From: Deroplatys truncata
Taxonomy: Eukaryota; Arthropoda; Insecta; Mantodea; Mantidae
Assembly: GCA_030765065.1 (NCBI GenBank)
Contig: CM060975.1
Location: 203,336,007 to 203,400,006, forward strand
DNA: 64,000 bases
Reading direction: 5' to 3'
The notes beneath the pieces were generated by a model. The model was given only the letters and a program-made list of their open reading frames with translations, had not been told where the DNA came from and made no database searches. Of this stretch, positions 3,653 through 64,000 are shown one piece after another (position 1 is the first letter of the stretch; each line of letters opens with the position of its first letter). The position numbers and the translations under genes were made by a program.

Positions 3653-4431
3653 ATTACTTTCTCTACTACGTATAGTAGGTAGAGGAAGTATTGCAATCCA
3701 TTCAAAATTTCAAAATTGAAATCGGAAATACATATTTTGAAGTGCCCTGAATCCAACAAAAAAAAATTAGAGAAAGAGCCGTGCGTGGGTCTGTTTAGAT
3801 GTGTGTCTGTGAAAAGTCGGATAAATACCGAACTTGGTATTTAGGTTCAGTACTTTTCAATCCCCCACCCCAGATTACCGTTTACATGGGACATTTTCGA
3901 AAATTTTTATTTTCTCAATGCAATGATTTGATTAAAATATCATATGTTTAAGATATTTTATGGCAAATGAAATATATATCTGGAATTTTCTGGGAATGTC
4001 CCCAAAAGTCCTCTTCACTCTGAATGACTTTTGCATAACTAGTAAACCGTAAGAGATAGGTAACGTTTACTACACAAAAAATGTAGATCTCGTTAAAATA
4101 CACAATTTATGTCAGATTGTTTTGTCGAGTGAACCATTTCCGAGATATTCCTGGTTATTTGTATGAAATTTTAAATGCATACTTATACTTTTTCTCAAAT
4201 GGCATTTTTTTAATGCCCTGGACATGCAAAGAGAATGGAACCAGCTCTTAAAAAATTTGACTATCGCTTAAATCCTAGCATATTCCCATTGCACCCACAA
4301 GAAAATTAGCAGTAAGACAGTTTCTACAATTTCATCTCGATTAACATGGAGTAGATGGAGAATAAGCATTTGTAAAAGTAGTTTGTACAAGAATAGAGAA
4401 AGTCATGACTAGTGTAACACATCATATTTTT
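3653..4431 (-). mobile_element. R1 (HINE-like) repeat, nearly complete copy
   Basis: Reference copy for the family. On the plus strand it opens with ACTTTCTCTACTACGTATAG, whose CTCTACTAC and GTAGGTAGAG halves form a hairpin. It closes with GAATAGAGAAAGTCATG and AACACATCATATTT. The short inverted repeat ACTTTCTCTACT therefore lies at both ends, at the tip of the hairpin end and about 25 bases inside the other end. Internal landmarks shared with the other copies are CCGGAAATACAT, ACTTGGTATTTAGG, CCCCAGATTACC, GATTTTGATTAAAATAT, TTTTCTGGGAATGTC, ATAACTAGTAAACC and CTCGATTAACATG. It has no transposase gene. Asymmetric terminal inverted repeats with a 3' hairpin are known from Helentron-associated elements (HINE/DINE-1), so I orient the family with the hairpin as 3'. 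Confidence 0.7.
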
Positions 4432-5390
4432 GTACTTATAACTATTACTTTCATGATACACAGCTGATTTTTTAACATCAGAATTTTTAAAGCCACAAAT
4501 GGGTATTTAATTGGCCCAGTGCCATTTAATTTTCTCAATTTATGCATTTTCAGTATTTTTGTCGTCTTGAAATGCTCCCTGGATCACAGTTTATAACTTC
4601 TTATCTTGAAATTTTCAGGAGAGCACAAGGAAATTATTTTGAATTTAAAAATTGTTGGGCATTAATTAACAATTATTATTTGTCCAATAACGTGTGAACC
4701 ATGTTTTCTCTTAAACTTAACTCTTTTCTTAACTTTTCTCTTAAAATTAAAAAATTCCTGCAAAGAATTTCTTTATGGTGTATAGCAAGCTCAAATTAAA
4801 ATTTTAGGAACGACACGATAAACCGTAGGGTCCAAGGAGTATTCCATATTACCATATCAAAAAGTGATTTATTATGAATAAAAATTAATATCTTAACAAT
4901 AGTTTGGCATAGCTCGTTTATGTTCTGAGCATATGGTAGGAAGTGAAAACAATCAGAATAATGTGAATTTTTTGTTTTCACGGATGCATTTCCTTAAACT
5001 CAAATTACGAATTAATTAATTTAATTTACCTTCCCCCGTTCTTTATGAAATTATTGTACAATAATCTAAAAGATTTTTATGATGAATACTCTCCGTTGCC
5101 CCTTATTATTGTAATTTCGTACAGCACCGGATATTCTGGATGAAAAAATTCCCTGGTATTAACGCAAAGGGATGTGAAACATCAGGAATATGAGACTTCC
5201 TTAACCTCCCCAACAGCTTTCCAAGTTCACCCTTTGGCGGTTGTACAATTATCGGTCAGAATAATCGAGTAATTTCTTAAACAATCACAGTAGATGAAAT
5301 TTTGAAGCTTTGTACCTTCTGTTCGGTCCAAAGTTATTTACTAACATAAAAACCACATACGTTTTAGGTAATGCAGAAACCCTTAACATA
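4432..5390. other. AT-rich stretch without recognised gene
   Basis: I found no coding frame with recognisable motifs. The sequence around 4560-4760 is low-complexity T/A-rich. It is bounded by an R1 copy on the left and a DNA transposon on the right. Confidence 0.4.
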
Positions 5391-8363: not shown

Positions 8364-8907
8364 TAAGTAGGGGAAGTATTGCATTCCACCCAAAAATTAG
8401 ACACCGAGATGTCACCGGAAATACGTTTTGAGGCCTCCTGAATCCAAAAAAAGTATTTTTGGAAACATGTCCGTGTGTGTGTCTGTGTGTCTCTGTGAAC
8501 AGCATAACTCAGAAACGAACAGTCAGATAAATACCAAACTTGGTATTTAGGTTCAGTATCTTCTAGAGATGCGACACAAAGGTTTCCAAGAAAATCCCCT
8601 CACCCCAGATTACCCTTTACAAGGAACATTTTTCGAAAATTTTAAGTTTCTCAAAAATGGCTATAACGATTTTGATTAAAATATCATATGTTTAAGATAT
8701 TTTCATCACAAATGAAATGTATATCTCGAATTTTCTGGGAATGTCTCCAAAAGTATTCTTCATTGTGAATGACTTTTGCATAACTGGTAAACCATAAGAT
8801 ATAGACAAACTTTTACTACACAAAAAATGTGGATCGCGTTAAAATACACAATTTATGTCATATACATTTTTTTTGTTGAGTGAACCATTTTCGAGATATT
8901 GCTTGTT

Positions 8908-9291
8908 CATTCATTCATTCATTATCTGTTTACCCTCCTCTTATGTAGGACTTACACCCCCCAGGACTTACAAGCGCGTGCCTGGGGTCAGAGGCCCGTC
9001 GAGGAGCAGACACTCATGGATCAACCAGAGCATCCAGGATGGGTGATCAGCCCGATGCCTGGTATGGGATGGAGGAAGTAGATGAAACGAAATGATGGTG
9101 AAATGGATGAAAGGAAACTTGATGATGGAGCAGTTGGTGGAATGAATGGTGGGGGAAACCGGAGAACCCGGAGAAAACCCGCCCAGGCGCCGCTTCGTCC
9201 ACCACAAATCCCACATGCAGGTCCCTGGGATTGAAACCGGGCCGCCTCGGTGGGAGGCGAGCGGTCTAACCACTCGGCCACGGCGCCGCCT
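8908..9291 (-). mobile_element. SINE family S1, full-length antisense copy
   Basis: On the minus strand it starts at GCGGCGCCGTGGCCGAGTGG (A-box-like) near 9291. A B-box-like GGTTTCAATCCC follows, then a body with TTTTCTCCGGGTTCTCCGG. The 3' end is a (TGAA/ATGA)n tail, seen on the plus strand as CATTCATTCATTCATT at 8908-8923. It is flanked by TATTGCTTGTT at 8897-8907 and 9292-9302, an 11-bp target duplication that proves retroposition into R1. The long reading frames in this interval come from the SINE body and are not genes. Confidence 0.9.
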
Positions 9292-9592
9292 TATTGCTTG
9301 TTAAACCCTTATATTTTTCAATACTTATACCTTTTATCAAATGGGAATTCGTTATTCATTTTTTTTGTCCTGGTAATGTAAAGAAAATGGAATACTCCAC
9401 ATAGCAACCAGCTCTTAAAATATTTGACTATCGCTAAAACCCTACCAATTCCTCTTGCATCTACAAGAAAATTAGCAATAAGAGTAACATCTCGATATCT
9501 CGATTAACATGAAGCATATGGAGACTAAGCGTTTGTAAAAATAGTTTGTACAAGAGTAGAGAAAGTCATGTGAGTGTAACTCATCAGATTTT

Positions 9593-10059
9593 TTATTTTC
9601 CTGTGTCTTAGTTGCTAAATCGTAACGATATTGGATGGAATGAAAGACCTGGAATTTGTCCTATTTTACGTACACGTAAGGTAACAACAACCATTTTCTA
9701 CCCCGTGACATTCTTAACGAAAAGTTTATGCCCTTTTTGAAAGTATGCTCTTTCATAACTAACGTTTTCGTGTCCCAGTACACTGACTTCCATTTATGCC
9801 ATCTCCGCATCCCTGAGAGGCATTCTACTGACCTTCACAGATAAGCAGATAGTATAGCAAGGAGGAGGTGTGTGTATGTTTGCTCTTTCGCGCATGCAGT
9901 GGCGTCCTGTTTTACATGCAGAATTCTAGACTGTTCTCGTATGAATATATAACTTTGAGCAATAGCTTTAATCAGCATCACTTGTATATAATAACCATGC
10001 CTTAATATATAACTAAATAAAACTCTGTTTTGGATAATTTCTTCAAAAAAAGTATTCTT
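9593..10059. other. Stretch without recognised gene
   Basis: I see no motif-bearing reading frame or repeat with detectable ends. The region lies between two R1 copies. Confidence 0.35.
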
Positions 10060-10450: not shown

Positions 10451-10451
10451 T

Positions 10452-12468: not shown

Positions 12469-12820
12469 TGGCCGTGGCCGTGGCCGAGTGGTTATACCGC
12501 TTGCCTCTCACCGAGGCGGCCCGGGTTCAATCCCAGGGACCCGCATGTGGGATTTGTGGTCTGGGCCGGTTTTCTCCGGGTTCTCCGGTTTTCCCCGCCA
12601 TTCGTTCCACCCACTGCTCTATCATCACTTTTCCATTGTTCCAGTTCACCATCATTTCGTTTCGTTTCATTCGGGCTGATCACCCATCCTGAATATTCTG
12701 TCTGATCCATGAGTGTCTGCTCCTCGACGGGCCTCTGACCACAGGCACCCGCCTGTAAGTCCTGGGGGTGTAATCCTACATATGAGAAGGTTAAACAGAT
12801 AAAGGAGAAGTTTAATACAT
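12469..12820 (+). mobile_element. SINE family S1, sense copy
   Basis: The head repeats GGCCGTGGCCGTGGCCGAGTGG (a tandem CCGTGG stutter) and carries the B-box-like GGTTCAATCCC. The body follows the 36170-36549 copy, then GTGTCTGCTCCTCGACGGGC near the 3' end. TAACATG occurs at 12462-12468 and 12821-12827 as a short target duplication. The four overlapping frames at 12401-12710 are SINE by-products. Confidence 0.85.
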
Positions 12821-13390
12821 TAACATGACAAATGAACTGTATTTCTTGAATTTTCTGAGAATAGCCTCTGAAGTCTTCTTCATCTGGAGGACTTTTTCAT
12901 AACTGGTAAATCGTAAGATATATACAAAATCTTACTACACAAAAAATGTACATCTCGCCCATTTTACGTCAAATACATTTTTTGTGATGTTAAATGATTC
13001 CGAGATATTCCTGTTTCAATTCTCAAATACTTATGCTTTTCTGAAGTATTCGCTTTTTTCTTTCTTTCTGTCTTTTTCTTTTGGCCATGCAGAGAGAACA
13101 GAACTTAAAAGCCATCACATAGGGACCCTCTCTTAAAAATGTTACTATTGCTTAAAGTCTACGTATTCTTCTAAAGATGCAATAGGACAATATTTGCAAG
13201 TGTTTATCTGGATTAACATGAAATACACCGAAAAATATGCTTTTGCAAGAATAGTTTGTGCAAGTAGAGAAACTCATGCGAGTGTACACATCAGAATTTT
13301 TTTAAGTTGAACAATTTTCGAAATATCTCAAATGATATGTTACTTCTTTCCCAACTTCATTATCTGGTGGACATGCTGAAAAGTTTGCGA

Positions 13391-14315
13391 TTTTTACTTT
13401 CTCTAATAGGGAAAGTATTGTATTCCACCCAAAAATTCGATACCGAGTTTTCACCGGAAATATATGTTTTCAGACCCCCTGAATCCAAAAAAAAAAGCAT
13501 TTTTGGAAACATGTCCGTGTGTGCTTCTGTGCGTCTGTGTTTCTGTGAACTCAGAAACGAACAGTCGGATAAACACCAAACTTGGTATTGTGGTTCAGTA
13601 TCTTCCAGAGATGCGACACGAAGGTCTTCAAGAAAATTCCCCCACCCCAGATTACCCTTTACATGGAACATTTTTCGAAAATTTTTATTTTCTCAAAAAT
13701 GGCTCTAACGATTTTGATTAAAATATCATATATTTAAGATATTTTCATAACAAATAAAATGTATATCTTGAATTTTCTGGGAATGTCTCCAAAAGTATTC
13801 TTCATTGTGAACGACCTTTGCATAACTGGTAAACCATAAGAGATAGACAAAATTTTACTACACAAAAAGTGTGGATAGCGTTAAAATACACAATTTATGG
13901 CATATACATTTTTTGTTGTTGAGTGACCATTTTCGAGATATTGCTTGTTATTCCCTTAAATTTTTCAATACTTATTATCTCAAATGGGAATTCGTTATTC
14001 ATTTTTTTGCTTGGCTATGCTGTGTCAAAGAGAATAGTGCTGCACCTAGCAACCAGCTATTAAGAGATATGTCTGTGCTTATATTGCCATTGCAAATACA
14101 AATCAAGGGGAACATGGTAGGCCTTAAGCGATAGTCAAATATTTTTAGAACTGGTCGCTATGAGTAAAACGTAATTCTCTTTGCACATCAAAAGATCGTT
14201 TCTGCAAATGTTTATCTTGATTAATATGAAATAGATGGAGAATAAGAGTTTGTAAAAATAGTTTGTACAAGAGTAGAGAAAGTCATGTGAGTGTAACACA
14301 TCAGATTTTTTTATT
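13391..14315 (-). mobile_element. R1 copy, near full length
   Basis: It opens ACTTTCTCTAATAGGGAAAG with the hairpin partly lost, and ends AGAGTAGAGAAAGTCATGTG, then CACATCAGATTTTTTTA. It is one of the best preserved copies and contains an uninterrupted minus-strand frame at 13360-13671 that is partly conserved in other copies. It belongs to the subfamily whose 5' part contains TCTTGATTAATATGAAATAG. Confidence 0.8.
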
Positions 14316-14519
14316 TCCTTCAATTGTAAGAGCCCGTCTCTAAATATATCTAAACATTTGAATGTCGTTTATGCCTATTCATAGGTAAAATGCAGCTCAG
14401 ATGGAAGAATCACTTATTTACTATGATATATAATAAATGTGTATGAATTTGAGAACTCAGTGTGACTATTCGTATTAGAGATTTTTCATGCAATCAACTA
14501 AAATAAAGATCGCAATATG

Positions 14520-15083: not shown

Positions 15084-15228
15084 TGTATAAAACCCAAAGA
15101 AAATTTAGAATTCCAATGACAACTGTATAAGATTTAGCGCCATTTTAACGATAAGCATTTTGTTCCAAAGGTAAAAGGCCGCCGATATGACCACTGCAGT
15201 TAAAGGCAGGATATAAATCGAACAATTT

Positions 15229-15800
15229 AAAAAATCCTGATGTGATACATTCATAGGACGTTCTCTACCCTCTATCGTTTCTTAGTGGGTACATAAATAC
15301 TTCTTACTGAATCTGATTTTCATAATACTACATTTTAATCGAATAAACCTTTGCAGAAATAGCTACATTACACATTTCATTATAGTACAAAGGGAACAGC
15401 GACAGTCAATTGTTTAAGAACTGGACGTTATAAGTTGGTCTTAAAATTCCATGCTGAATCGCGGGAAGCAACTGAATGTTGAAAGGACTTTAAAGGAATG
15501 ACCTAAAAATGAACAACTCGAACCATTAGTAACGAATATCTCGGAAATGGCTGATGCCACAAAAAAAAAGTATTTGAAACAAATTGTGCGTTTTAAAGCA
15601 ACCTACATTTTTTGTGTAGTACGTTTTTGTCTATTGTTTAACGTTTACCAGTTATACAAGATAATACAAAATTCCTTGTGGATGAAAAAGAACTTCAAAG
15701 GCTGTTCCCAATAAATTCAAGATAAATCAAAATAAATATATTTTATTTGTCATGTTAATATCCTTAATATGTGGTGTACTTTACGTGTAATTTTACGAAG
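15229..15800 (+). mobile_element. R1 copy, 3' part missing
   Basis: The 5' end reads AAAAAATCCTGATGTGATAC, then GACGTTCTCTACCCTCTATC. The body has GAAATAGCTACATTACAC and GTTTACCAGTTATAC. This is the second subfamily, with CCCTCTATCGTTT beside the inverted-repeat core in place of CTCTTGTAC. It stops near 15800 at an (AT)n tract (15823-15841). Confidence 0.65.
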
Positions 15801-16351: not shown

Positions 16352-17300
16352 TAATTAAAAAACTGTTACATTCACATGACCTTTTCTACCCTTTTTCATA
16401 TGAGAGGGAGGTACCGCATTCGGGAGGTCACGGGTTCCCGGCGACCGCACACTCTGGTCCATGGGTTTTTCGTGGTTTCCCCGGGTCCACAAGCGAATGC
16501 TGGGGTGGTTCATCTTCTACCACAACTCTCCTCCCTCTCATTTCCTACACCCATCACCTTTCTTGTGATATGTTTCAGCGTTGTAGGACCAGGCGACGGT
16601 GTTCGGTGGATTGCGGCTGGACGGTGACTTGTGTTCTATAGAGGTCTCTTCCCTGCGTCGCTGCGGAACCGCTCATTTAAGTCTCTTCTCCAAGTGGGCT
16701 CCTTCTCCGGGACGCTAGAGGTTGGTTGCTTGTGGGCAGGGACCGGGCGGCGTCGGATGCCTTCTATCTGTAAACGTTAGGCACTCCATCCATGCTTGCG
16801 CCGTCGTCATCCGGATCTGATAGCCAAAAATTATTCTCGTGAAGTTTGTTTTACTATCCACTACATTTTAGTGCACATAATCATTTGCAGAAATAGCTAC
16901 CTTACACATTACGTTATAGATACAAAGGGAACAAAAACAGTCAAATGTTTAAGAACTGGACGCTATATGCCGGCCCCAGTCCTATCGTGCAATCACAAGA
17001 AACAACTGAATGTTGACAGGACTTGAATGACAAAGTATTAGGCAGTTCGAACCATTATTAACTGGTATCTCGGATATCGCCGGTGCCACAAAAACGTTAT
17101 TTGGAATAAATTATGTTTTTTTAGAGATCTATAGTTTTGTGCACTGCGTTTGCGTCTGTCGCTTAGGTTTACCAGTTATACAAAAATTTTACAAAATTCC
17201 TTCCGAACGAAGAGGACCTTGCGGGCTGTTCTAGAAAATTTAAGATATTAATTGCATTTGTCATGTAAATATATTTAATTTATGGTATTTTAAAGCCTAA
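16352..17300 (+). mobile_element. R1 copy with inserted S3 SINE
   Basis: The 5' end is at 16352-16395 (AAACTGTTACATTCACATGA, then CCTTTTCTACCC). The body resumes after the SINE near 16840 (TTTTACTATCCACTACATTT) and runs to about 17300. The 3' hairpin end is missing. It abuts an oppositely oriented R1 copy, forming an inverted pair. Confidence 0.65.
16396..16815 (+). mobile_element. SINE family S3, sense copy
   Basis: GTACCGCATTCGGGAGGTCA, then CGGGTTCCCGGCGACCGC forms a degenerate tRNA-like head. The body phrases TTTTTCGTGGTTTCCCCGGG and GCGAATGCTGGGGTGGTT recur at 22490-22540. GC-rich within AT-rich R1. Ends are approximate. The frames at 16246-16641 and 16376-16627 are SINE by-products. 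Confidence 0.6.
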
Positions 17301-17860
17301 CTAAATTTCGAAAAGTCCATTAAATACCTAACTTGGTATTTAAGTTCAGTATTTTCTAAAACTACTTCTTACATGCAACATGTTTGGATATTTTTTATTT
17401 GATCAAAAAAGGCTCTAACGATTTTGAATAAAATATTATATATTTAAGATATATGAAAGGTAAGTTATAACGATATTTCAGGGAACAACCTATGAAGTCC
17501 TCTCCATTCGAAAGGAAATTTGTATAACTTTGCATAACTGCTGAACGTTAAAGATGTACAAAAAGTACTACAAAAAAACATAGATCTCTTTAAAAGGCAG
17601 AATATATTTCTAATAACTTTTTCTGTGCATCAGGCATATTCGAATTATCCTTTATTATTGGTTTGAATGTTTTAATACTTTGTCATTTTTTAAATTGGTG
17701 TTCCTATTCAGTTGATTATCGCAATGTCATGTATGGAGTATGGAATTTAAAAGCCAACATAATGAGACATGATTATCGATTCTCCTCTCTGTATTGCCTT
17801 TGTACCTACAACGAAATATACAAAGGTTTATCTCGATTATAGGTAGGTATATTACATTAA

Positions 17861-18905: not shown

Positions 18906-19616
18906 TGTTTAATGACCACATCAAATGGTACACCCTCAAAAGTTATATAGGAAAGCAAATAGAAATAATGGTGACTGTTCAATCTGTAGCCAGCGAGAGG
19001 ATGGCAGTACTCTTAACCCGCTGGTCGGTGATCATTACCAAGCAAGGAATTATTGCTGTCAGCATAGGTTGTTAAGCGTTTCCCTCTTTATGACACACTA
19101 GAAGATGATAGCGAAGAACCCAGTAACTTTAAGACACGGTAGTTTACACATTATATTGGTACTTTGTCATGCAGACAGATCTCGTTCCGTCGACATTTTT
19201 ATGGAGCTAGTGTCTGCCTTTCTGCCTTTATTCCAACCATACTAAACTTCAACATACACAATGAAAAATTCATTATAATACTTGTATCTCCCCTAAAGTA
19301 ACTGCAGTAAAACTGCTTATTTTTACTTATTTTATTGTACAGTGTGGGTATTGCTTTCTGTAGCAGTATCGATTCTCGAATTGGGACTATATAAACTACT
19401 CTGGTGGATCAAATTGTCAGATAAAGTTACACGTCTTATAGTCAGAAGTAAAGTTATAATAATGTGGGGGGTAAATACTTAAATACTTGTGATTACCTAG
19501 TCGTAATATTCAACGCTTGTTTTGCAAATTACTATTGCAACATTTATAACAGTTGATTATTATTTATAGAGGCACTTCCACTTAAAAGTAGCTAATATTT
19601 TCTTACTTTCCTCAGT
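18906..19616. other. Stretch without recognised gene
   Basis: I find no coding motif, tRNA-like box or paired terminal repeats here. Confidence 0.35.
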
Positions 19617-19731
19617 TATTACTTTCTCTACTACGTATACTGAGTAGGGGAAAGATTAGATAACGGATTTCACCGGAAATGCATATTTCGAAGTACTCTG
19701 GATCCAAATAAAGAATGTATGAAAGCATGTC

Positions 19732-19782
<51 letters not shown>

Positions 19783-20490
19783 ACGATAACTCAAAAACGA
19801 AAAGTTTTAGTTTAGTTTTAATATCCTAAAAAGATGCGACACGACGATTTTCAACAAAATCCCCCACCTTAAACTACCCTTCACATGAAACATTTTCGAA
19901 ATTATTTTTGATTTTCTAAAAAATGGCTTTAACAGTTTGATTAAAATGTCATATGTGAAAGATATTTACATTACAAATTAAATGTACATTTTGAATTTTC
20001 GGGGAATTGCCTATGAAGTCCTCTTTATTCGGAAGGAATTTCGTATAATCTTGTACAACTGCTAAAAGTTAAAGCGATAGACGAAAACGTATTACCAAAA
20101 ATGTAGATCTCTTTAAAACACACAATTTACTTAAAATAAGTTTTTCTGTGGCACAAACCGTTTCTGAGATATCCGTTATTAAAGGTTCGAATTGTTCATT
20201 TCTTGGTCATTTTCTTAGTCCTTTCAACAATCAATTGTTTCTCGCAATTGTTTGGAAGCAATCTGGAATTTTAAGGGCAGCATATAGCGTCCACTTCTTA
20301 AACATTAGCCTTCACTGTTCTCTTTGTAGGTATCTATAACGGAATGCTAATGTAGCTATTTCTTCAAAGGTTTATTTGAATTAAAATGTAGTATATAGAA
20401 AAATACGTTTGAGTAAAAATAATTTGCATACCCACTAATAAACGAGAGGATAGAAAAGGTCATGCGAATGTATCACATCAGATTCTTTTT
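19617..20490 (-). mobile_element. R1 copy with expanded (GT)n
   Basis: It starts TTACTTTCTCTACTACGTAT and ends ACATCAGATTCTTTTTAAC. The internal GT tract is expanded to a microsatellite of about 48 bp at 19733-19781. The antisense frame at 19612-19794 encodes a His-Thr run only because of that tract. The copy is of the CCTCTATCGTTT subfamily (GAGGATAGAAAAGGTCATGC at the far end). Confidence 0.75.
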
Positions 20491-20538
20491 AACTAATACA
20501 ACAAGTAGCTTGCTCGCGTTATTGCATTAAGTGCAGTA

Positions 20539-24030: not shown

Positions 24031-24833
24031 TAAAAATCTGTTACATGACTTTCTCTACTCTTGCACAAACTAGTTTTACACATGCTTATTCTCTAGCAAT
24101 TTCATGTTAATCGAGATAAACATTTGCAGAAACTCCTATTGCTAATTTTCTTGTAGGTGCAAGGGGAATATGGTAGGCTTTAAGCGATACTCAGATCGTT
24201 TAAGAGCTGGTTGCTTTGTGATCTCTTTGCTTGTCTAGCGGAAAAAAAGGCGAATAACGAATTCCTATTCGAAAATACAACATATATCTCGGAAATGGTT
24301 CGACAAAAAAAAATCTATACTATATAAATTGTGTGTTTTAACAAGATTAACATTGTTTGTGTAGTAAAATTGTGTATTTCCTAGGTTTACCAGTTAAGCG
24401 AATGTCGTCGAGAATAAAGAGGACTTTTGAGGACATTCCCAGAAAATTCAAGATATATATTTTATTAGCCATGAAAATATCTTGAACATGTGTATGATAT
24501 TTTAATAAAAATCGTTAGATCAATTTTTGAGAAAGTCAAAATTTTCGAAACGTGTTTCATGTAAATATGACGGGATTTTCTTGAAAATCGTGTCACATTC
24601 TTGGAAGATACTAAACTCAAAATACCAAGCTTGGTATTTATCCCAATTTTCGTTTTTGAGTTGTGCGGTTCAAAGAGGGATAGGCACACAGACACACAGA
24701 GGGGCTACCAAAAATATTTATTTGGATTCAGGGCACCTCAAAACATGTATTTCCGGTGAAATCTCGGTACGGAATTTTTGGGTGGAATGCAATACTTCCA
24801 CTGTTTACTATACGTAGGCACTAAAGAAGGTAA
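24031..24833 (+). mobile_element. R1 copy
   Basis: The 5' end TAAAAATCTGTTACATGACT is followed by TTCTCTACTCTTGCAC (CTCTTGTAC subfamily). The 3' end has CTGTTTACTATACGTAG, but the terminal AGTAGAGAAAGT is altered to GGCACTAAAGAAGG. The plus-strand frame 24527-24817 belongs to the partly conserved R1 frame. Confidence 0.7.
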
Positions 24834-38223: not shown

Positions 38224-38352
38224 GGATTGTTTTCTAAATATGTTTTTTTATTCAGGGGACCTGAAAACATTTCCTGTGAAATCTCGTTATGGAATTTTTG
38301 GGTGGTATACAATACTTTCTCTACCTATATGTACGTAGTAGAGAAAGTAAAC

Positions 38353-39887: not shown

Positions 39888-40194
39888 TTAAGGTAATCTG
39901 CAAGTGTAAATCTAGCCAAAAGTGACACCTTTGACATTCAGCTTCTCAACCCATGCAGTTTTAAAAAAAATCAGTGAAATGTTTCAGGTGAATGCATTAG
40001 GCATCAGTAAGTGCATGACAATTGTCATTAAATTTGAGACAAGAGAATCTGAGGAATAAAAATTAAATTTGTAATGTACAAATTACAGGTAATAAAACAT
40101 ATGTAATAATGTACCTTTTACACATAATGTAATAATTGTTTTGAGCAAAAGATATTATTAGCCAGTACAGTCCATCGTCAAGTGTGGTTTCCTT

Positions 40195-43350: not shown

Positions 43351-43381
43351 CAATAGTAAATATAAAAGCTGTCTTTGTGCT

Positions 43382-44262
43382 TTAAAAATTCTAATGTGAT
43401 ACAATTACATGACTTTCTCTACCCTCTATCGTTTATTAGTGGGTACACAAATTATTCCTCAAGCTTATTATTATTACTTTTTATTACCTTTTAATTCAAA
43501 TAAACCTTTGCAGAAATAGCTGAATTACACATTTTGTTATAGATACAAAGATAACATCCATAGTCAAATGTTTAAGAACTGGACGTTATAAACTGGCCTT
43601 AAGATAGCATACTGTTCCCATGCAATTGCGAGAAACAGTTGAATGTTGAAAGCACTTCAACGGAATGGTCAAGAAATGAACAATAAGATTCGAATCTTTA
43701 ATAACGGATATCTTAGAAACGGCTTATGCCACAAAAAACTATTTTAAATAAATTGTGTCTTTTAAAGAGATCTATATTTTTGTGTAATACGTTTTCGTCT
43801 ATCGCTTAATGTTTACCAGTTATACAAGATTATGCAGAATTCTCTCCGAATGAAGAAGACTTCAAAGGCTATTTCCAGAAAGTTTAATAAATACATTTTA
43901 TTTGCGATGTACACATAATTAATTATGGTATTTTAATCAAAATTGAGAGAGCCATTTTTTAGTAAATCAGAAATTTAAAAATTTTTTATGTAAAGGGTAG
44001 TTTGGGGTAGGGGATTTTCTTGAAAATTTCGTGTCGTATCTTCAGAAGGTACTGAACCTAAATACCAAGTTTGGCGTTTATCCAACCAGACTTTTCGTTT
44101 TTGAGTAATGCAGTTTACACACACACACACACACATACACACACACACGGACCGACCTTTTTCTAAAAATGCTTTTTTTTTTTTGGGATTCAGAAGGCCT
44201 AAAACATGTATTTCCAGTGAAATCTCGGTATCAAATACATATACGTGGTAGAGAAAGTAATA
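43382..44262 (+). mobile_element. R1 copy
   Basis: It starts AATTCTAATGTGATACAATT, then CATGACTTTCTCTACCC, and ends ATATACGTGGTAGAGAAAGT. A (CA)n tract is at 44115-44149. The segment between the CCAGTGAAATCTCGG block and the hairpin is shortened. CCTCTATCGTTT subfamily. Confidence 0.75.
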
Positions 44263-46618
44263 ATCAGTTAAAACCAAAAAGGAACCGACAGCTTTAATTA
44301 GCTCTTGTTTACAAAATATGCTGATTACCGATGATGTCACGTAAACACTCCTCAGAACGCATTCTTGAGAATACACCAAAAATAAAATGCTGAAGAAAGG
44401 TAACAATTATGGTGCAGCAGTAAAAATTAATCATTTAGAAGGCCTGAATGCCATAACAGCCTCGTTGCAGATCCCCCAGGTAGCAGAAGCTGATCGGAAT
44501 TCAATACGCTTTTGGGAGTCTCACCACGGTAGTTCAGAGATAGAGCGCGGTAAGACAAGCCAAAGATCCGTTCAAGACTCGCCACAGCATTGAATTTGTA
44601 AAATTTAATACAAATTTTCAAACTTCGCTTATGTCTAACTATGGCAAAATAAACTCCAGTAAACAGAAATATACGTTTCAGGTTTTTATGTTGCCAATTC
44701 TTTATTATATGTTTACATCAACACATCACTATTTATGTTGAAGAAAGTGACATTAAAGACACCTCTTGGAACTGGCAAGATGGTTACGTAGTTTGAGATG
44801 GGTCACATAAGGAATATATCTCCTTCACAATTTTTTCTTCTATAGCTGATCCAGCCTTACAGCCGGACTTGATGTTAGCCCCGTGTTCATATCAGCCTTG
44901 AGGAATAAGTCTTATCCTTATCGTATGGATGCAGAAGAGAGGTGAACGACAACACACAGAATTAAACGGAAGCTCTATATTCTTAAATTTTATTATTAAT
45001 ATTAGTATGAAGTTTTGAATTATGTTTGATTAATATACTTCTTGAAAGTTCACAGATAATCGCCCACATTTAAGGTACTCTATGTTATGGTGTGCTTTGG
45101 TTTCCCGCGAATCGCGGGCTAGTTAATGACGCCATATGTTTACATCAAGTCCAGTACTGCAGCTTGTCTCAACCATAAAATAAATGGGATAAGCCTGTCT
45201 CTATCTAACGCACGTGTTGCATTAGTTTCGTCCTTTTCTATTCTTCCGCTGTCGCCAAGTTGCTCATAACATGGTATAAAATTCAGCTTTGAATACATTA
45301 TCTTACGCAGGATATATTTTATCTATCAGATTGTATCATTTTTAGAGCCTTTATACATTTCTGTATGTTCAAATTTCTAAAAAAAAATGTGCTTTTCATT
45401 AAAAGTCTGATATTTGCAGTTTCTTTGCTTATCACTAGAACTAGAACACATTTCCATTGAGCGAGGAATCAACCTAACTACCACCCTACCTAGTACACGT
45501 TGTATCGCATTGAATACACGAACCCAGAGCTGCACAGTCGACAGTCACTTGGGTTACTAGCGTGGTAGAATTGCTTCCTGTGAGCTCTATGTTTATGTTC
45601 TGCTTTACCCCTGACATTTCTGTTTACAGTTCCAGGTTACCTGTGGCATCCCCTTCCCCTAGCCGCACTGTCGATACAAACTAGCAGCGTGCACGCATTG
45701 TCAGCCAAAGGATATTTGTCCTAGGTCAGCTTATCACGAGTAACTGATAAACTAAACGTAGAACGCAACTATATTCTTTTCTTAGATAGAGTAAACTAGA
45801 GTGCCGATACCTGGCAAGTTTGCATCCTCTATCTTTAATAAGAAGGGCGTTATAATTTTTTAAATTAAATATTTTCGGAAAATGCTATACCTATGTAGCA
45901 GAAAAGTCAGTCAGCGAGAAACCTTTTGTTATTGTGTTTACAACGGGGACCAAGCGAGAGAAATGTTGAGGAGGGTTGGAGACACATTTTAAAAGAAGCC
46001 GAACCTCTTGCAAACATTGTGTATGACAAACAAAATTCATCCATATATTCAGGTAACAGGTGGGCATGAGGCAGAAGACAGTAAAGGTTAATATCAGTTG
46101 TAAAGAAGTGTGTGCGTTTGTAGCGTGGGAACACTGTGAGATTATGTGGGTTATTTATTTGCATTTTACGTGATTATAGTAATGGAGGGAGAAGCCAGGA
46201 ATAGACGAAATATTGGTACACTAATAAGAAACGCAAAGTAATAATGTAGCTGTTTAGATTATTCAAGTAAATTAGTGTTAGTGAGCCAGTAAAAGAAACA
46301 GAGGGGTGTTCAGAATCAGTGGTGTATTGGATAAAAAGGGAACGAATGAAAGGACCTCTAAGGACGACATCCAAAAAGAAAGCAAAAAGGGAAGGGGAAA
46401 CAAAAACGCGCTAGGTTAACGCAATTATGATGGAATAATGCAAAGCGAAGTGCGGCGCATAGTTCATTCTTTGCTGTTTGAGAACATTCCACCCACGGTG
46501 AATGTAATTATGCCAAGGGTAAACAGTGATACCCTAATCAAGTTATGGATTTTATTATCAACATTTCTTTGATAATTTATGATTTTATGCCAGAAAATCG
46601 TACTTCGAAGTACTAAAC
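44263..46618. other. Long stretch without recognised gene
   Basis: 2.3 kb with short frames only (44387-44593, 45907-46164 minus, 46174-46374 minus), none with a recognised motif. I saw no tRNA-like boxes or paired ends. It may be unique DNA. Confidence 0.35.
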
Positions 46619-47445
46619 AAAACCTGATGTGTTGCACTCACATGACTTTCTCTACTCTTCTACAAATTATTTTTACAAACGCTTATTCTCCATCTAGTTC
46701 ATATTAATCGAGATAAACATATGCAGAAATCCTATTGCTAATTTTCTTGTCGGTGCAAGTGGAAGCGATAGTCAAACCTTTTAAGAGTTGTTTGCTATGC
46801 GAAGCATTCCATTCACTTTGCATGCCCAGGACATAAAACAATTAAGGAATTCCCATTTAAGAAAACGTAAGAAAAGTATTAGAAAATCCAAACAAATAAT
46901 AAGGAGTATCTCAGAAATGGGCCACTCGACAAAAAAAAAGTATACGACATGAATTGTGTTTTTTAACGAGATCTACATTGTTTCTGTAGTAAAATTTCGT
47001 CTATTTCCTACGGTTTTCCAGGTATGCGAAAGTCATTCAGAATTAAGAAGACTTTTGGGGACATTCCCAGAAAATTCAAGCCCAGTTTTCATACACATAT
47101 CTTAAACGTATGATATTTTAATCAAAATCGTTGTAGCTGTTTTTGAGAAAATTAAAATTTCGAAAAATGTTTCATGTGAAGAGTAGTCTGGGATGGGAGG
47201 ATCTTTTTGAAAATCCTCGTTTCGCATCCTTGGAAGATACTAATTCAAATACCAAATTTGGTATTTATTCGACTTTTATTTTTTTATTTATGCTGTTCAT
47301 AGACAGACAGACATGTTTCCAAAAATGCTTTATTTTGGATTCAGAGCACCTTAAAACTTGTATTTCCGGTGAAATTTCGGTATAGAGTTTTTGGGTGGAA
47401 TGCAATACTTACCCTACTTACTATACACAGTAGAGAAAGTAATAC
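46619..47445 (+). mobile_element. R1 copy
   Basis: The 5' end AACCTGATGTGTTGCACTCA is followed by CATGACTTTCTCTACTC, and the 3' end is TACACAGTAGAGAAAGTAAT. CTCTTGTAC-type subfamily. The microsatellite position is reduced to AGACAGACAGACA near 47302. Confidence 0.8.
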
Positions 47446-48444
47446 AAAGAAAGATAAAGTGCAGGTGAAAATTAAATGTTTTTCAATAGCTTTAAATAAC
47501 AGTGCGGATATTTCACTATTCGTTGATGTACATATATCATTCACAAGATGACATTAAATTTGTAGACCGATCGCAGGTGGTCGAACGAGCGTACGTATAC
47601 AGTGGCAACGGTGCGCTCCATTTAACCTGTATTATCTTTTAAGCGTAAGACGTGCTATAGGAGTGGACCAATTGTAGGTAAGCTGTAGATGAACGGTGAT
47701 ATGAATACTATACCAGTACAAAGCACGACCGGATTGACGCATATGCAGATCAGTATTCATCAAAATATTTTATCAAGGCAGTGTTGCCATCAGTTTCTGT
47801 TTATATTCTCTGCACCGGTCATCTATGGAGAACAAAGCGCTGCTTGAATGAGCAGCAGACTGTTACGCTTATTACTTCTGGAATTGCTACAAAAGGTTAT
47901 GGACCTATTGCTGCAACATCCCTAGTTTGTTTGTTAAGCGCTAAATATTTAATAAAAAGCTTCGGTACAGTTATGCAGTCACGGGACTGTAACACAGGAC
48001 CAGCAGACAGAATCGCCCTGAGTCACGCCGCTACCAGCAGAGTGTGACAAAACAGGTGTACGGTGACCTTCCGCAAAGAAACCATTCACTCGGTAGTCAA
48101 GCGATGAAATAATAAAGAAGACACTTAAATAGTTCACGCTTTTTTATTTGTACTTCATACTTCCACGAAGGGGAGTGAGGCGAGAAAATGATGAATAGCA
48201 GGGCAGTAACAATGCAGTAATCATAAAAACAGGATCTACAATGTTCCTGCAATTCATGTTACATGCATATTTGTCACGCTCATTATATGTTATCATCACC
48301 TCTGGGGGACATGGGAAAACTACTGTATCTGCCGCCACGTCGTCACGCTACAGCTACCATCGCAAGCAATGTTGGACGTGTTCGGGATCACACAACAAAT
48401 GGGCACAAGCAACATAATTTTATCTAGTATATCAAGTTTCCGAG
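47446..48444. other. Stretch without recognised gene
   Basis: The 88-codon frame at 47781-48047 (ending PADRIALSHAATSRV) is not low complexity but is not recognised and has no supporting splice or promoter signal. Confidence 0.3.
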
Positions 48445-49080: not shown

Positions 49081-49832
49081 TGAATTTAAAGAAGTTAAAT
49101 AAAGTTTATTACCCTTTTATTTAAATAGAACCACTTTGTAATTAATTATGATTTGGGTTAATAGATCTTATATCCAAGATATATTTACTCAGTGAAAGGA
49201 ATCTAATAGAATAATGATTAAGATATCTTGTAGAGCTAATTGCAAACTTTATTTTAGGAGACGTAATGTTTTGACAGTTGTAAATATGTACGTATATAAT
49301 GTATAGCTATTTATGTAACAAAATCCAATACTTGGTTGGATGAAGATGAAGAGGAAGAAACACAATTAATATATGTATGACGTAAAACCTGACATTCATA
49401 AGTATAATATCCGAAATTGCCCAAAATGGCTTGATAAACTTCACAAAATTTCTTTGATATTAAAGTTTTAATAAGATACCTCAAGTTTTAATTGCTTTAC
49501 CAGATAAAATGTTTAGTAAAATAATACGCTATTGTCTTGCGAATAACCCACTTTATTCTATCAATGAATTTACCGTACTTGATGTATATGCTATTTATAT
49601 TTAGTTTATGGCAATATTATAATAATTTTAATATTACAAATGTTGTAGAACACTTAGTTTACATTACATATAATTAATTTGTATTTAATTGTATCTATTA
49701 ACTTTGTTTATGCAGTTGTATAGGTAACTAACGACGATAAATTCATTGATTGAATGTAATCCAACAAAAAATTGGATTTTGAGATTTCACTGCAAATGCA
49801 GGTTCTGAGATGTCTCATCTGTTAACAGGTAT
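49081..49832. other. AT-rich stretch without recognised gene
   Basis: Very A/T-rich. No reading frame or repeat of note. Confidence 0.35.
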
Positions 49833-50697
49833 CTAAAAAAATCTGGTGCGATACATTCACACGACTTTCTCTACCCCCTATCGTTTATTAGTGGGCATAT
49901 AAATTATTCTTACTCAAGCTTATTTTTCTATCTACTTCATTTTAATCCAAATAAAGCTTTTTAAGAAATATCTACTTTATCATTTCGCTACAGATACAAA
50001 GGGAACAGCGATAGTCAAATGTTTAAGAAGAGAGAGCTATATGCTGGCCTTAAAATTCCATACTGTTTCCATGCAGTCGCTAGAAACAACTGAATGTTGA
50101 AAGGACTTGAAAGCAAGACCAAGAAATGAACAATTCGAACTATTAATCATATCTCAGAAACGGCCTATGCAACAAAACAAACTTATTTTAAATGAATTGT
50201 GTGTTTTAAAGAGATCTACACTTTTTTTGTGTAGTACGCTTATCGCTTAACGTTTACCACTTATACAAGTTTATACAAAATTACTTCCGAATGATGAGGA
50301 CTTCATAGGCTATTCCCCTAAAATTCAAGACATAAATTTCATTTTATAAATTTTATGGTATTTTAATCAACATCGTTTGAGCCATGTTTAGAAAATAAAA
50401 AAAGTTTTAAAAAATTTTCCATGTAAAGGATGGTTTGGGGTGAGGGGATTTTGTTGAAAATCTTCGTGTCTGCATTTTTGGAAGACATTGAATCTAAATA
50501 CCAAGTTTGGTATTTATCCAACTTTTCGTTTTTGAGTTATGATGTTCATAGACCAGAGACAGTCACGCACACGGACCTGTTTCCAAAAAATGATTCGTTT
50601 GGATTATACGGACCTTAAAGCATGCATTTCCAGTAAAATTTCCGTATCTAATTTTGGGTACTTCCCCTACTTACTATACGTAGTAGAGAAAATAAAA
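49833..50697 (+). mobile_element. R1 copy
   Basis: It starts AAAAAATCTGGTGCGATACA, then CGACTTTCTCTACCCCC, and ends TACTATACGTAGTAGAGAAA. CCTCTATCGTTT subfamily. The CA tract is reduced (CACGCACACGG near 50565). Near full length. Confidence 0.8.
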
Positions 50698-51185
50698 ATG
50701 TAAAGTCGGATAAACCCAACTTTGTAAGATGTACATATTTTCATACCGTCTCCCTCACTCAAATACGCTTTTCGTAAAAATTTGCATATTTTCCCTTTTA
50801 GTTATTAAAAAGATAGCAAACAAATAGTCTACAGAGATGGGATTGCTGCTAACGGTGGCAAACTATCAAAGAATAGACCGAAAGATAAATGAAGAAATTA
50901 AGAAAGAATTTTCGATATTCAGCCTTTATCTTAATATATAAAAGTCAGTGTATGACTGTGTGTGTTCCTTATTGCCTTCTACACCGTAGCACTGATTTCG
51001 ATTAAACTTGGCACAGATAATCTTTGACACAACACGAAAATTACCGTCTAGCTTAGAATTCGAAATTACCGCCATTTCACCGATTAGTTATTTAATTTTA
51101 TATTACACCTACATAAGCTCGCAAGACCATCTTCATTTTTCTCAACGATAATCGTAATAGTTACCAACACAAGAATAATAATTAC
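50698..51185. other. Stretch without recognised gene
   Basis: It contains ATATATAAAAGTCAGTGTAT near 50934-50953, followed by CTTCTACACCGTAGCACTGA. I considered this as a transposon end but could not support it. Confidence 0.3.
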
Positions 51186-52894: not shown

Positions 52895-53653
52895 AAATCT
52901 GATGTAAACGCCCATTTCTCTGCCTATGATAAATTTACACATATTCGTTAGGTGCTGTAGTTTTCATATATGCCGTTTTCACTATCTAACCTAGGAATGG
53001 CTTCAAATTAAACATTACATGCTTAATGCAGCATTTGAAAGGAACATTTAAATAATTTGATAACGAGTTCTTAAGATGGAAAGAAAAAAGAAGATCCTCA
53101 AACTTTCGAGTAAGTCCGTCAGATGCCATAATTTGGAAAGTATAAATATAAAACATAAATATTAAAAAAAAAAAGGTTTTATTTGATAAAAATTATATAC
53201 CTTAACGAGCACAGCATTTTTCTTCTAAGTTTTTTCTGTCCTCTATGTTTCCCAATTTACAAAATTGTGCAAAACTCAATCAGTAAAAAAGAAAGGTATA
53301 AAGGCTAATTATATAAAATCCTACATATAAATACATTTAATTTATCACATCAATTTCTCAAACCTGACACAGTTTAACTAAATTTACGAGCAAATTTCGG
53401 AGAAAAGTAAAATAAAACCTTTTTCATGTGAGGGGAAGTTTGGGATGGATGAATATCCTCCAGATCTCCAAACGGTATGTTTAGATAATGTCTGACGGAC
53501 ATATACATACACACACCCACAAAGACACGTTTTTCTAAAACGTCTCAGTGGTCCTCGAAACGTGTATTTCCGGTGAAATTCCCATATAGAATTTTTGGGT
53601 TGAATACAATGCTTGCTCCATCTAACATAGGTGGATAGTAGAGAAAGTAAAAA
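52895..53653 (+). mobile_element. R1 copy, old and diverged
   Basis: The 5' end is AAAAATCTGATGTAAACGCC with the inverted-repeat core eroded. The 3' part is clearer: GTATTTCCGGTGAAATTCCC, TTTTTGGGTTGAATACAATG, then GGATAGTAGAGAAAGTAAAA. It has a CA-rich tract at 53502-53516. Confidence 0.6.
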
Positions 53654-53760
53654 TGTAAAAAGCGTTAAAATTCAATTTTCCGAAATTTTAGCAAATCTTA
53701 GTTCACGTTGTAGTCGTTCTTTGCTCTTATGAGCTCGTATACGTTTGTAACAATATGGGT

Positions 53761-58200: not shown

Positions 58201-58876
58201 TTCACCTCCTCAAGTAAGTATTCGTTTGAACTTCAAAAAATACTAGTAGATAAATTAATGAAGTGAAAATCGAATTTTTTTGGACATAAATATCAAATGG
58301 TACTACGGCTTACTGTTTGGTCGGTTTTTTAGATCGCTAATTTTATCAGTTATACAATGTTTTGAAAAATATGCCGACATTTCAACTTTTTTGTACCTAG
58401 TGTTTTCAAAATTAACTTTCATGCATTCGGTAGAGCATTTTTTGTGCATACATCCACACACTTTCATCATCATGTGACTTAAACTGGTGGAGACATAAAT
58501 TCGTGAAGTCATAAAGTGAGACGAAAATGAGGAATTAAGTCAAAAACTTTGAAAATTCCCAACTTTGACATTTTATTCCTCCGTCAAATAAAATCCTAAT
58601 TTCACCACAAAATCCATACAAAAAATTGCTCTACTAAATTCATATAGGATAATTTTGAAAACACCACGTACAAATGAGTTGCAATTTTGGCATATTCTTC
58701 AAAAATGTAAAAAACTGATAAAATAAACGATCTGAAATACCGCCAAAATACGTAAACTAAAATTAAATTCTTCCCTCCATTAATTTGGCTTCTAGAATTT
58801 TTTAAAGTGCAGACGAATACATTCTTCAGGGGGTGTATTTCGTAAAGGTTATCTCAACTAAGATGAAGTAGACAGA
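58201..58876. other. Stretch without recognised gene
   Basis: Two opposed frames (58280-58477 plus, 58303-58512 minus) overlap and neither has a recognised motif. Confidence 0.35.
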
Positions 58877-59717
58877 AAAAAATCAGATGTGATACATTCA
58901 CTTGACCTTCTCTACCATCTATTGTTTATTAGCATACAAACTATTCTTACTAAAGTTTTAATGCAAATAAACCTTTGCAGAAATGGCTACATTACACATT
59001 CCTATAGATACAAATATAACAGCGAGTCAAATATTTAAGAACTGGATGCTTTTTGCTGCCTTAAAATTTCATACTGTTTCCATGCAATCGCGAGAAATAA
59101 CAATGTTGAAAGGACTTTAAAAATGACCAACAAATGAACAATTCGAACCGTTAATAACGGATATTTCAGAAATGGCTTATGCCACACAAAAAATTTATTT
59201 GAAATAAATTGTATGTTTAAAACAGATCTACATTTCTTGTGTAGTGCGTTTTCTTTTATCGCTCAACATTTAGCAGTTATACAAGATTATACAAATTTTC
59301 TTCCGAATGAAGAGTACTTCAAACGCTATTCCCAGAAAATTCAAGATACACATTTTATTCGTCACATAAATCTCTTCAATAAAAATCGTTGAGCCATTTT
59401 TAGAAAATCAACATTTTCGAAAAATGTTCCGTGTGAAGAGTAGTTGGGGATGGAGGAATTTTCTTCAAAATCTTTGTTTCGTATCGTATCGTTGGAGGAT
59501 GCTGAACTTAAATACCAAGTTTGGTACTTATACGACTTTTCATTTTTGAGTTATGCTAATCACAAGCACACATACACCCGCGCGCGAATCTTTTTAAAAC
59601 ATGTTTTTTTTTTTTGTTAATGGACCTCAAAACATGTTTCCGGTGAAATCTTGACATCGAATTTTTGGGTAGAATACAGTACTAACCCTACTTACTATAC
59701 GTAGTAGAGAAAGTATA
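58877..59717 (+). mobile_element. R1 copy
   Basis: It starts AAAAATCAGATGTGATACAT, then CTTGACCTTCTCTACCATC, and ends CTATACGTAGTAGAGAAAGT. The microsatellite site reads CACACATACACCCGCGCGCG (59568-59587), a CG-shifted variant. CCTCTATCGTTT subfamily. Confidence 0.8.
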
Positions 59718-60435
59718 AACTTTTGTAATAATGGTCTGCATAAGTTATATAAAAATAAACAATATTGACTAGAGGAAGTCGCACAACATAATTTTTTAAA
59801 GCGGAGTAGAATGCTTTCTGGAGTCACTATTGGTGTAATATGCCCAGTTCTGGCCTCAGTGCTGAAATTCTTCTCCGTCTTCTACCAATACGTAATACGT
59901 TCTCTATGTTAAACAATCATTAGGATTGTCGTTTATGACAATGAATGTCGGTCTGGACAGCATTTGGGGCTTGTACGGGCTTGGGGCTTGTACGGTTCTC
60001 GTAGCCACTTTCGCTAAGGTACTTCGCTCTGTACTTACTCATTGCTTTTACCAAGCGAACACTCTGATATGTACAACCCATAATAATGTAAATAGTTGTA
60101 TTTTCTGAATGTGTTGGGAGTGAAAGGTAAAGTCACGGACGAACGGAGGGGTCCCCACAACCGGACAGAGCACCACAGGTAGGCCGCAATGGCCCTTTTT
60201 GCTTTTGCAGTGACCCCTGGAGGATGAGGTGAGAGACCAGAAGGACGACAGCTCCAGATGATGACAGATGCAAGTATGGACTGATGTTTCCAGATAGAAT
60301 ACATCCTATGTATTCTAGGGCACACCTAGAATCCTCCGAAACCCCGACGGTACCCTTCTGGTGAGACAGCTCGGAGTCGGGTCCTAACTGAGCAGTCCAG
60401 CAACGACGCCAGTGAAGAAGCCTCTATGTAGCGCA
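59718..60435. other. Stretch without recognised gene
   Basis: The section 60115-60430 is GC-richer, with a 96-codon minus frame (60035-60325) that I do not recognise. It directly precedes the mitochondrial insert. Confidence 0.35.
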
Positions 60436-61970: not shown

Positions 61971-62461
61971 GTTACAAGAAATGAAACCAGGGCGTAAATA
62001 TGACACGCAGAGAAGTTTATGTTGCAGTAACTCGCTTCATGCAGGTACAAAGTGAATCAATTTCACGTCACTGACATTGAAGCAATAAGCTGGCCTCGGA
62101 TGACTGGAGCGGATCATAAAGCGGGTCATCACATAAAAAGTCAATCTCAACTGGATGTACAATATTTTGTGCTATGGCAATAGCCCGAAACAGGAAGCAG
62201 TAACGTTGCATTGTTCCTCGCTCTACCCCTTCCTGAGGTTGTTGATGCCTCAAGGACGATACCTGCTCATTAGCCCTCTACAACGCGACGTATGTGCGTG
62301 CAACTGAACATAATAGCTTACCTGCGAAAGGGGCTATAGGATAACTTGAGATTTCTACGTTCACAATATTGTAATTCATTGACTGGCAAAGGAAGAAGGT
62401 CCATGCAGCTATACTCTGAAAAAGTTAACAATAATCTCGTTATGGTTCACTCATAGATACC
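61971..62461. other. Stretch without recognised gene
   Basis: A 61-codon minus frame at 62068-62253 has no motif. Nothing else recognised. Confidence 0.35.
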
Positions 62462-64000
62462 ACTTACATAGTAGGTAGAGAAGGTATTGCATTTCACTCA
62501 TAAATTCGATACCGAGATTTCAAAGTGAGGCAGTATTTTTAACAATTAAATGATTTCAGTCAAATTATACTATATATAAATTCAATAACAGCCCGCTCTG
62601 AAGCAATGTGTGTATGTAATAATTTGTAAAATGTATGTAACAGTCATTGCATATGCTTATATTGTTGTATCCATGTGTAATACTGTTATGTGAATATATT
62701 ACGTAATTTAATAATGTAGGAGCTGTGAGAATAATCAGTTAAACGTTACTAACAATGAGGTAACAATGAGGTAACTTTGATGCAATAATGAGTTTGAGAG
62801 TTAAAATGTTATTTGTGATTCTTAGAAGCATTAATGTAATTTTAGGGACGGTTTAAAAATGGCCAATCAACAACCAGAAAAAGCTGTAGTTAAATGCAGG
62901 TATTCTATTGGAGTGGGATTAGCCAATCAGAGACTTGAAATACAGAAATTTACAAGCTTAGATGGTTGAAATCTAGTCAGTTGCCTGCAGACAGTGATAG
63001 TAAGCGGATGCATGATGCGTCCTCGAGAAATTAAATACGTATTCGTGTGAGACGAAAATAGTATATGTATTAAAAATTGCAAGTATTAAATAAAAGAATC
63101 TCACAGCTCTCGATATCAGTGAAGTGCTATTTAATTTGTGTCAAGGATTAATAAAAAGGAGTGAATTATAACTTAAAATCTGTGTAAGCCTACATTCTTG
63201 TCGCATCACGCCCCGCCAAGACGTCCATGTCTCTAACAATAATACTGACGCAGCCGAGGCAAACATAAATATTTAATAGGTACTTAAAGAAACAGTTTCA
63301 TTACAAAGTTAATATTTTTTAAACTTAGGGCAATGACCACCTATAAAAACATTTGGAGCGAAGGTTACCGGAAACTGTTTACTATACGTGCTGTTGCAAC
63401 TACTACAAGTTCGGCTCCTCAACAGTTGAAATACGATACAACTCCTTCAATACAAACTACTTCAAATCGGCTTTTCATATGTAGCCGCAACTTACTAGTT
63501 TAACAGAAAATACAAGTTTGAGACCCGCTGAATCCAAATAAAACATGTGTGTCTTTGAAAAGCATAACTCAAAAACGAAAAGTTGGATAAATACCAAACT
63601 TGGTATTTGAGTTCAGTATCTTCAAGGATGTGACACTTAAGATTTTCAATAAAATCTCCCCATCCCAACTACCCTTTACATGGAACACCTTTCGAACATT
63701 TTTATTTTCTAAAAAATGGCTCTAACGATTTTGATTAAAATACCACATATGAAAGATATTTTGTATGACAAAAGAAACGTATATCCTGAATTTTGTGGGA
63801 ATAACCTAGGAAGTCCCCTTCATTCGGAAGGAAATGTGTATAATCTTGTTTAACTGGTAAACGTTAAGCCATAGACGAAAACGTAGTAAACAAGAAATGT
63901 AGATATCCTTAAAACACAATTTACTTCACATAAGTTTTCTTTGGCATAAGCCATTTCTGAGATATCGTTATTAATGGCTCGAATTGTACATTACTTGGTC
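62462..64000 (-). mobile_element. R1 copy split by the third LTR-like element, runs off the window
   Basis: The left part, TAGTAGGTAGAGAAGGTATT to CGATACCGAGATTTCA, is at 62462-62521. The body resumes at 63509 (AAATACAAGTTTGAGACC) and continues in order through ACCAAACTTGGTATTTGAG and GGCTCTAACGATTTTGATTA to the window end. The far end is not included. Confidence 0.75.
62522..63508 (+). mobile_element. LTR plus leader, copy 3, inserted in R1
   Basis: About 985 bp interrupt R1. It contains the CCAAT box (62923-62932), the inverse pair GAGCTGTGAGA (62720-62730) and TCTCACAGCTC (63099-63109), and AATAAA-type signals near 63150. The junction CTGACGCAGCCGAGGC lies at 63245-63260. The leader ends ACTACAAGTTCGGCTCC..CTACTTCAAATCGGC. 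R1 resumes straight after, so LTR plus leader moved or was retained as a unit without gag-pol. A target duplication is not obvious. Confidence 0.55.

Follow-up and report, generated by a model that had tools for sequence, protein, structure and literature searches.

The 64,000 nucleotides of the mantis Deroplatys truncata analysed here (assembly GCA_030765065.1, contig CM060975.1, positions 203,336,007 to 203,400,006 of the forward strand; this whole stretch is called the window) contain many copies of a repeat, R1, which is very probably a non-autonomous Helentron-associated element (HINE) resembling DINE-1 and copied by a Rep/helicase/endonuclease protein that is encoded elsewhere. R1 is most likely copied by intact Helentrons that carry the same ends. 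A preliminary description of the window had classed R1 as HINE/Helentron-like, and this is supported by the shared ends, the T-run target and the presence of an intact Helentron in the same genome.

In the window, a profile made from full-length copies detected R1 on both strands in 38 pieces at E<=1e-3, ten of which reach both ends. Together they cover 17,294 of the 64,000 bases (27%), in agreement with the earlier estimate of about a quarter. The repeat reported at 3653..64000 is thus real, but these coordinates merely bracket the window and the family is genome-wide. Copies of R1 are about 0.8-1.0 kb long, and none has room for a transposase, as had been claimed; this is judged by length, the stop-to-stop frames listed being short (longest seen 146 aa). 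The core quoted in the preliminary description and the internal CA/GT tract are both present, and the end sequences ACTTTCTCTACT and AGTAGAGAAAGT are found at seven and six places, respectively. Length-weighted identity to the consensus is 78% in the window as compared to 82% in a sample of 20 other stretches (see below), which puts the window copies on the old side.

The 5' end of R1 has the structure (T)n-ACTTTCTCTACT-ACGTATAGTA-AGTAGGGGAAGT, a hairpin that is followed by a GT/GTCT tract at about positions 145-175 of the consensus model, in the 5' block. The 12-bp subterminal inverted repeat (subTIR) ACTTTCTCTACT stands directly after the T-run and forms one arm of this hairpin. The 3' end reads AGTAGAGAAAGT-CATGTGAGTGTAACACATCAGA-(T)n, the CATGTGAGTGTAACACATCAGA stretch including CATGTG-loop-CACATCAGA before the T-run. 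The terminus accordingly consists of the 3' subTIR AGTAGAGAAAGT, which is internal, at a distance of about 22 bp from the T-run, then ATGTG-loop-CACAT, seen in most 3' ends, and then CAGA(T)n. In DINE-1, according to PMC4067079 and PMC2374699, the 5' subTIR stands at or very close to the terminus and the 3' subTIR is internal, an inverted repeat next to the 5' one has one of its arms inside it, a GTCY-rich tract lies in the 5' block and a stem-loop occurs near the 3' end. R1 matches this layout only on the strand opposite to the one used in the preliminary description, so the orientation given there was reversed. Comparison with DINE-1 and with the autonomous element described below assigns the supposed 5' side (TCTGATGTG...) to the 3' end of R1, and the supposed 3' hairpin before AGTAGAGAAAGT to its 5' end.

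The 5' hairpin folds as DNA with -5.7 kcal/mol (z -3.93), a value reached by none of 200 shuffles. In 28 distinct ends (out of 34, six odd ones being excluded) 94.4% of the cells pair, as compared to 49-67% for slid partners, and the covariation score is higher than that of all 500 shuffles. At least four T's adjoin 41 of 59 R1 5' ends and 40 of 56 3' ends, whereas TTTT starts at 1.6% of the window positions. The finder of 5' ends required at least two T's, so only the four-T count is informative; seven satellite loci (L002-L008) were left out of the flank counts, which lowered the number of 3' ends from 63 to 56, and loci L009-L028 were taken from the first listed motif matches and favour R1-rich places.

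A genome search with the Pfam family Helitron_like_N gave 152 matches, as compared to none in 14 control genomes. One group has long open frames, with 18 listed matches of more than 2,000 aa, and the Helentron is described from one copy of this group (L049+L050). Its frame of 2,324 aa contains Helitron_like_N (PF14214, 1.2e-27), a PIF1 helicase (1.8e-28), DUF6570, Herpes_teg_N (1.2e-8), and a C-terminal endonuclease match, Exo_endo_phos_2 (PF14529, 2.9e-6). We take the Herpes_teg_N match to be the OTU-like protease sometimes present in Helentrons. The motifs HEH, YIIKYISK (two-tyrosine), Walker A, GDFN and SDH are readable in the frame. At about 4000-4960 of L049 a unit of about 21 residues (..EDEEYKKSERKRNKEYMEQAR..) is repeated in tandem within the frame, which may explain the variation in frame length among the copies.

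The Helentron shares both ends with R1. The R1 consensus is 94.4% identical to the 5' side of the copy over L049:622-1260 and 90.9% over L049:1249-1982, and 95% identical to its 3' side over the last 40 bp before the T-run. A query of 1,600 bases across the 3' end, scored in 40 copies that are 94-100% alike, placed the 3' boundary sharply: the alignments of all 39 non-self copies break off at query 1042-1054, within the 3' T-run or immediately past it. On the 5' side only the copy itself extends to the left of query 406, and most matches start at 421-426, which is the T-run before ACTTTC; the places scored here comprise R1 copies as well as Helentrons. A 5' leader query of 2,201 bases, which begins 49 bases upstream of an inner R1-like 5' end, was matched over its whole length by 22 of 40 scored copies (self included), and six copies start at query 50-52. 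As these six begin exactly at the inner R1-like end, a 5' end of the R1 type belongs to the Helentron itself. The preliminary description had named an autonomous Rep/helicase element with R1's ends as supporting evidence, and such an element was thus found in many copies with sharp boundaries on both sides. No non-Helitron transposase with the R1 termini was met, no systematic search having been made for one.

Insertion between T's without duplication, the other observation named in advance, was examined by means of empty sites. Among 35 R1 elements with both ends, ten had a match that spans the joined flanks, and five of these represent four distinct non-R1 sites: L021 (empty in L039), L015/L016 (one minisatellite site), L018 (a minisatellite) and L033 (empty in the window). 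Three of the four (L021, L015/L016 and L018) differ from at least one empty copy only by T's at the junction, and no non-T target-site duplication was found at any of the four. Four other spanning matches are head-to-tail R1 pairs (L017 twice, L026 and L022), and L025 has R1-like flanks. A dispersed repeat matches the joined flanks of the Helentron in 38 copies that run through the junction without a break (74-83% identity), whereas the flanks are separated by about 10.4 kb where the element is inserted. One readable empty copy has TTTT at the junction and the filled site has T6-element-T7. R1 and the Helentron therefore insert into T-runs, with no duplication other than possibly of T's. A duplication of T's alone would be indistinguishable from T's carried by the element, a difficulty also reported for DINE-1 in PMC4067079.

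A number of results speak against this classification of R1 or fall short of it. Two-sided change in the 5' hairpin is seen in only one of 12 pairs (T-A to C-G, in five sequences), no more than in shuffles (1.1). The 3' end has a stem of only 5 bp, and its folding energy does not stand out from that of shuffles (R1, z -0.72; Helentron, z -0.52). About 22 bp separate the 3' subTIR from the T-run, as compared to 38-60 bp from the end in the mite HINEs for which PMC4067079 gives this distance. The PF14529 match is barely above the Pfam cut-off (27.6 vs 27.4 bits), and a PDB search with the endonuclease part gave no relative, the one match being unrelated (E 0.53). Finally, L033 carries ten bases more than its empty site. 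At L033:4457 the sequence ATTTTTTAC stands between the 3' end and the host sequence and is like a T-run with the first bases of the R1 5' end; the extra bases would fit copying that went a little beyond the end.

In the mechanism that we propose, R1 carries only end signals and the coding function is supplied in trans by the Helentron protein. This protein would recognise the 5' subTIR and hairpin as well as the 3' subTIR with its short stem, its endonuclease would cut in T-runs, and whatever lies between the ends, R1 as well as the Helentron itself, would be copied by rolling circle. R1 itself may have arisen by internal deletion of a Helentron, of which the 5' leader and the 3' tail were kept.

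Alternatively, R1 was once independent and the Helentron acquired R1 ends by inserting into R1, so that the relation would be secondary capture and not parentage. Composites clearly form: in the Helentron copy that was read, the element's own 5' region, which starts at 1249, is preceded by another R1 5' part (L049:621-1251), and a further R1-type 3' end occurs within 300 bp downstream in 16 of the 39 non-self copies. However, six copies have the inner R1-like 5' end as their start and all 39 have the 3' terminus in common, which indicates that the Helentron has R1-like ends of its own, and we regard capture as improbable. With either history R1 would be mobile by the same protein. Much less credible is that R1 is a miniature inverted-repeat transposable element (MITE), derived by deletion from a terminal-inverted-repeat transposon of the cut-and-paste type. 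The 12-bp inverted ends, short length and high copy number fit a MITE, and DINE-1 was first described as one, but the repeats of R1 are asymmetric, one being terminal and the other set back by about 22 bp; the four distinct non-R1 empty sites lack non-T duplications; and the autonomous element with both R1 ends encodes Rep and a helicase, which largely refutes this explanation. Derivation from a canonical Helitron (5' TC, 3' hairpin with CTRR, insertion at A/T) can be dismissed with near certainty, as R1 disagrees with it in ends and target (it ends in CAGA(T)n and not CTRR, begins in a T-run and not with TC, and targets T-runs) and its partner has a C-terminal endonuclease, even though the genome also holds a group of Helitron_like_N matches that score highest (up to 196 bits), mostly with stops (for example C1:38116489 and C4:128870265), and probably form a separate Helitron lineage.

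Under the preferred reading of R1 as a HINE, the composites deserve attention of their own. R1 has an internal T-run at about model positions 640-670, and 8 of 56 R1 3' ends are directly followed by this very segment (model 645-652); for comparison, 30 of 1,174 T-runs of at least five T's in the sample lie at the internal T-run of R1. The eight ends are not independent, two loci giving two each, and the loci were partly chosen for R1 density. In the 16 Helentron copies with a second R1-type 3' end this lies on the same strand, in 14 of them at 214-243 bp, and two more copies have such an end on the other strand. The spacing of 214-243 bp is as expected if Helentrons sit in the R1 T-run or moved with the R1 remainder. 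Many Helentron copies also carry an extra R1 5' part ahead of their own 5' end, and the copy that was read moved together with this outer part, because its empty site lies outside it. Ladders are found at L027, L034, L044, L019 and L025, where R1 3' ends about 220-233 bp apart are each followed by the internal T-run segment, so that the 3' module of R1 is repeated head to tail. We tentatively propose, as a possibility somewhat short of an even chance, that the internal T-run of R1 is a landing pad for Helentrons and R1 and that the nested product moves as a unit whose mixed ends would include either an R1 5' end on the outside or a 230-bp 3' module of R1 in addition. Such self-nesting, if true, would help both elements to multiply, make them longer step by step and give rise to tandem arrays.

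The preliminary description had further proposed that R1 is very abundant in this genome, which comprises 4,289,915,091 bases in 818 contigs, and the counts bear this out. The 12-mer ACTTTCTCTACT occurs 267,484 + 270,276 times, the reversed 12-mer 1,038 + 974 times. With up to two mismatches, the 41-base 5' end was found 117,070 + 117,578 = 234,648 times and the 35-base 3' end 126,318 + 127,769 = 254,087 times genome-wide, while the reversed controls gave 0; the family thus has no fewer than 234,000 ends close to the consensus. In 20 other 10-kb stretches, placed by hand at round positions (ten on C1, ten on C2-C8), R1 makes up 30,503 of 200,000 bases (15.25%; bootstrap 8.9-22.3%) with 75 profile matches, none being found in the reversed-sequence control, and six stretches are without R1. 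These values were obtained with profile R1m, built from 42 copies, some of them within sampled loci; an older profile of five window copies gave 15.00%. If the 200-kb sample is representative, a single HINE family accounts for about a seventh of the 4.3-Gb genome, a share that bears on the growth of very large genomes. R1 also occurs in a tandem array (L001-L008; C1, about 19-119 kb) with a period of about 3.41 kb and one R1 copy per unit read; in a comparison with the first unit, three others showed 98% identity.

The Helentron/HINE kind is already known; the R1 family itself is a new member, with notable abundance, an intact partner and self-nested composites. R1 was not found described in a literature search by exact strings, to which Repbase and other sources did not belong, and a 33-mer of the R1 3' end had no exact match in viral_contigs and genome_contigs, from which the records of this genome were possibly excluded. 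To our knowledge, most descriptions of HINE families do not include an intact partner from the same genome. With Helentron copies that are 94-100% alike and have long frames, native parts of R1 and the Helentron could serve to test trans-mobilisation, the targeting of T-runs and whether copying continues beyond the first 3' end.

The R1 copies in the window are given below with nhmmer model positions, on which the strands are based; these give the true 5' to 3' orientation of R1, opposite to that of the preliminary description.
3648..4437, plus strand: full-length copy of R1, the very probable HINE (model 7-894)
8364..9600, plus strand: R1 copy, interrupted at about 8918-9291 by a short interspersed element (SINE) (model 35-895)
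12806..13305, plus strand: R1 3' part (model 366-893)
13387..14318, plus strand: full-length R1 copy, of which internal 14090-14191 also matches on the other strand (model 6-896)
15225..15775, minus strand: R1 3' part (model 363-894)
16829..17293, minus strand: R1 fragment (model 356-841)
17294..17839, plus strand: R1 fragment (model 181-801)
19612..20492, plus strand: full-length R1 copy (model 6-893)
24031..24839, minus strand: full-length R1 copy (model 7-889)
30314..31186, minus strand: full-length R1 copy (model 6-895)
31301..32246, plus strand: full-length R1 copy (model 8-887)
32966..33752, plus strand: R1 copy without 5' end (model 84-892)
36606..37252, minus strand: R1 3' part (model 236-894)
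38134..38357, minus strand: R1 5' end (model 6-214)
40189..40946, plus strand: R1 copy in two pieces (model 6-611 and 712-890)
43379..44267, minus strand: full-length R1 copy (model 6-894)
46612..47447, minus strand: full-length R1 copy (model 8-894)
49831..50701, minus strand: full-length R1 copy (model 7-894)
53170..53656, minus strand: R1 5' part (model 7-554)
58871..59721, minus strand: full-length R1 copy (model 8-895)
63499..63999, plus strand: R1 fragment reaching the window end (model 81-614)

The SINE at 8918-9291 is bounded by the direct repeat AACAAGCAAT; further SINE places are at about 12480-12700 and 36168-36550, and in our reading, by eye, this element has a tRNA-like head. On the minus strand at 5785-6867, broken frames resembling a mariner-type transposase were likewise recognised by eye.

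Among known systems, R1 is similar to DINE-1/INE-1 of Drosophila in architecture. As described in PMC2374699 and PMC4067079, DINE-1 has, like R1, subTIRs of 12-13 bp, at the 5' end terminal or nearly so and at the 3' end internal, an inverted repeat that adjoins the 5' subTIR and has one arm within it, a GT/GTCT-rich 5' tract, a T-run target and no coding frame. The 5' hairpin of R1 differs in that it includes the entire subTIR, and the copy number of R1 is far above the 334-6,297 per Drosophila genome counted, with other criteria, in PMC2374699. HINE-Mo of the mite Metaseiulus, as presented in PMC4067079, is likewise non-autonomous, has a T-rich target and is paired with a Rep/helicase/endonuclease Helentron that shares its ends; its subTIRs are palindromes, and their distance of 38-60 bp to the 3' end differs from that in R1. 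Helitron2, as outlined in the same paper, shares asymmetric inverted repeats with the element found here and has palindromes at both ends, as this element has at the 5' end and may have at the 3' end, but is without the endonuclease that this Helentron has. In an oyster, dispersed tandem repeats are reported to be carried by Helentron-related elements (PMC7492417). Rolling-circle elements also form a large share of multi-gigabase grasshopper genomes, Helitrons amounting to 7-20% of the repeatome in the figures quoted from PMC7486953 and to 17-22% of the assemblies in those from PMC7754599; these figures pool the whole superfamily, whereas R1, at about 15% of the 200-kb sample, is a single HINE family.

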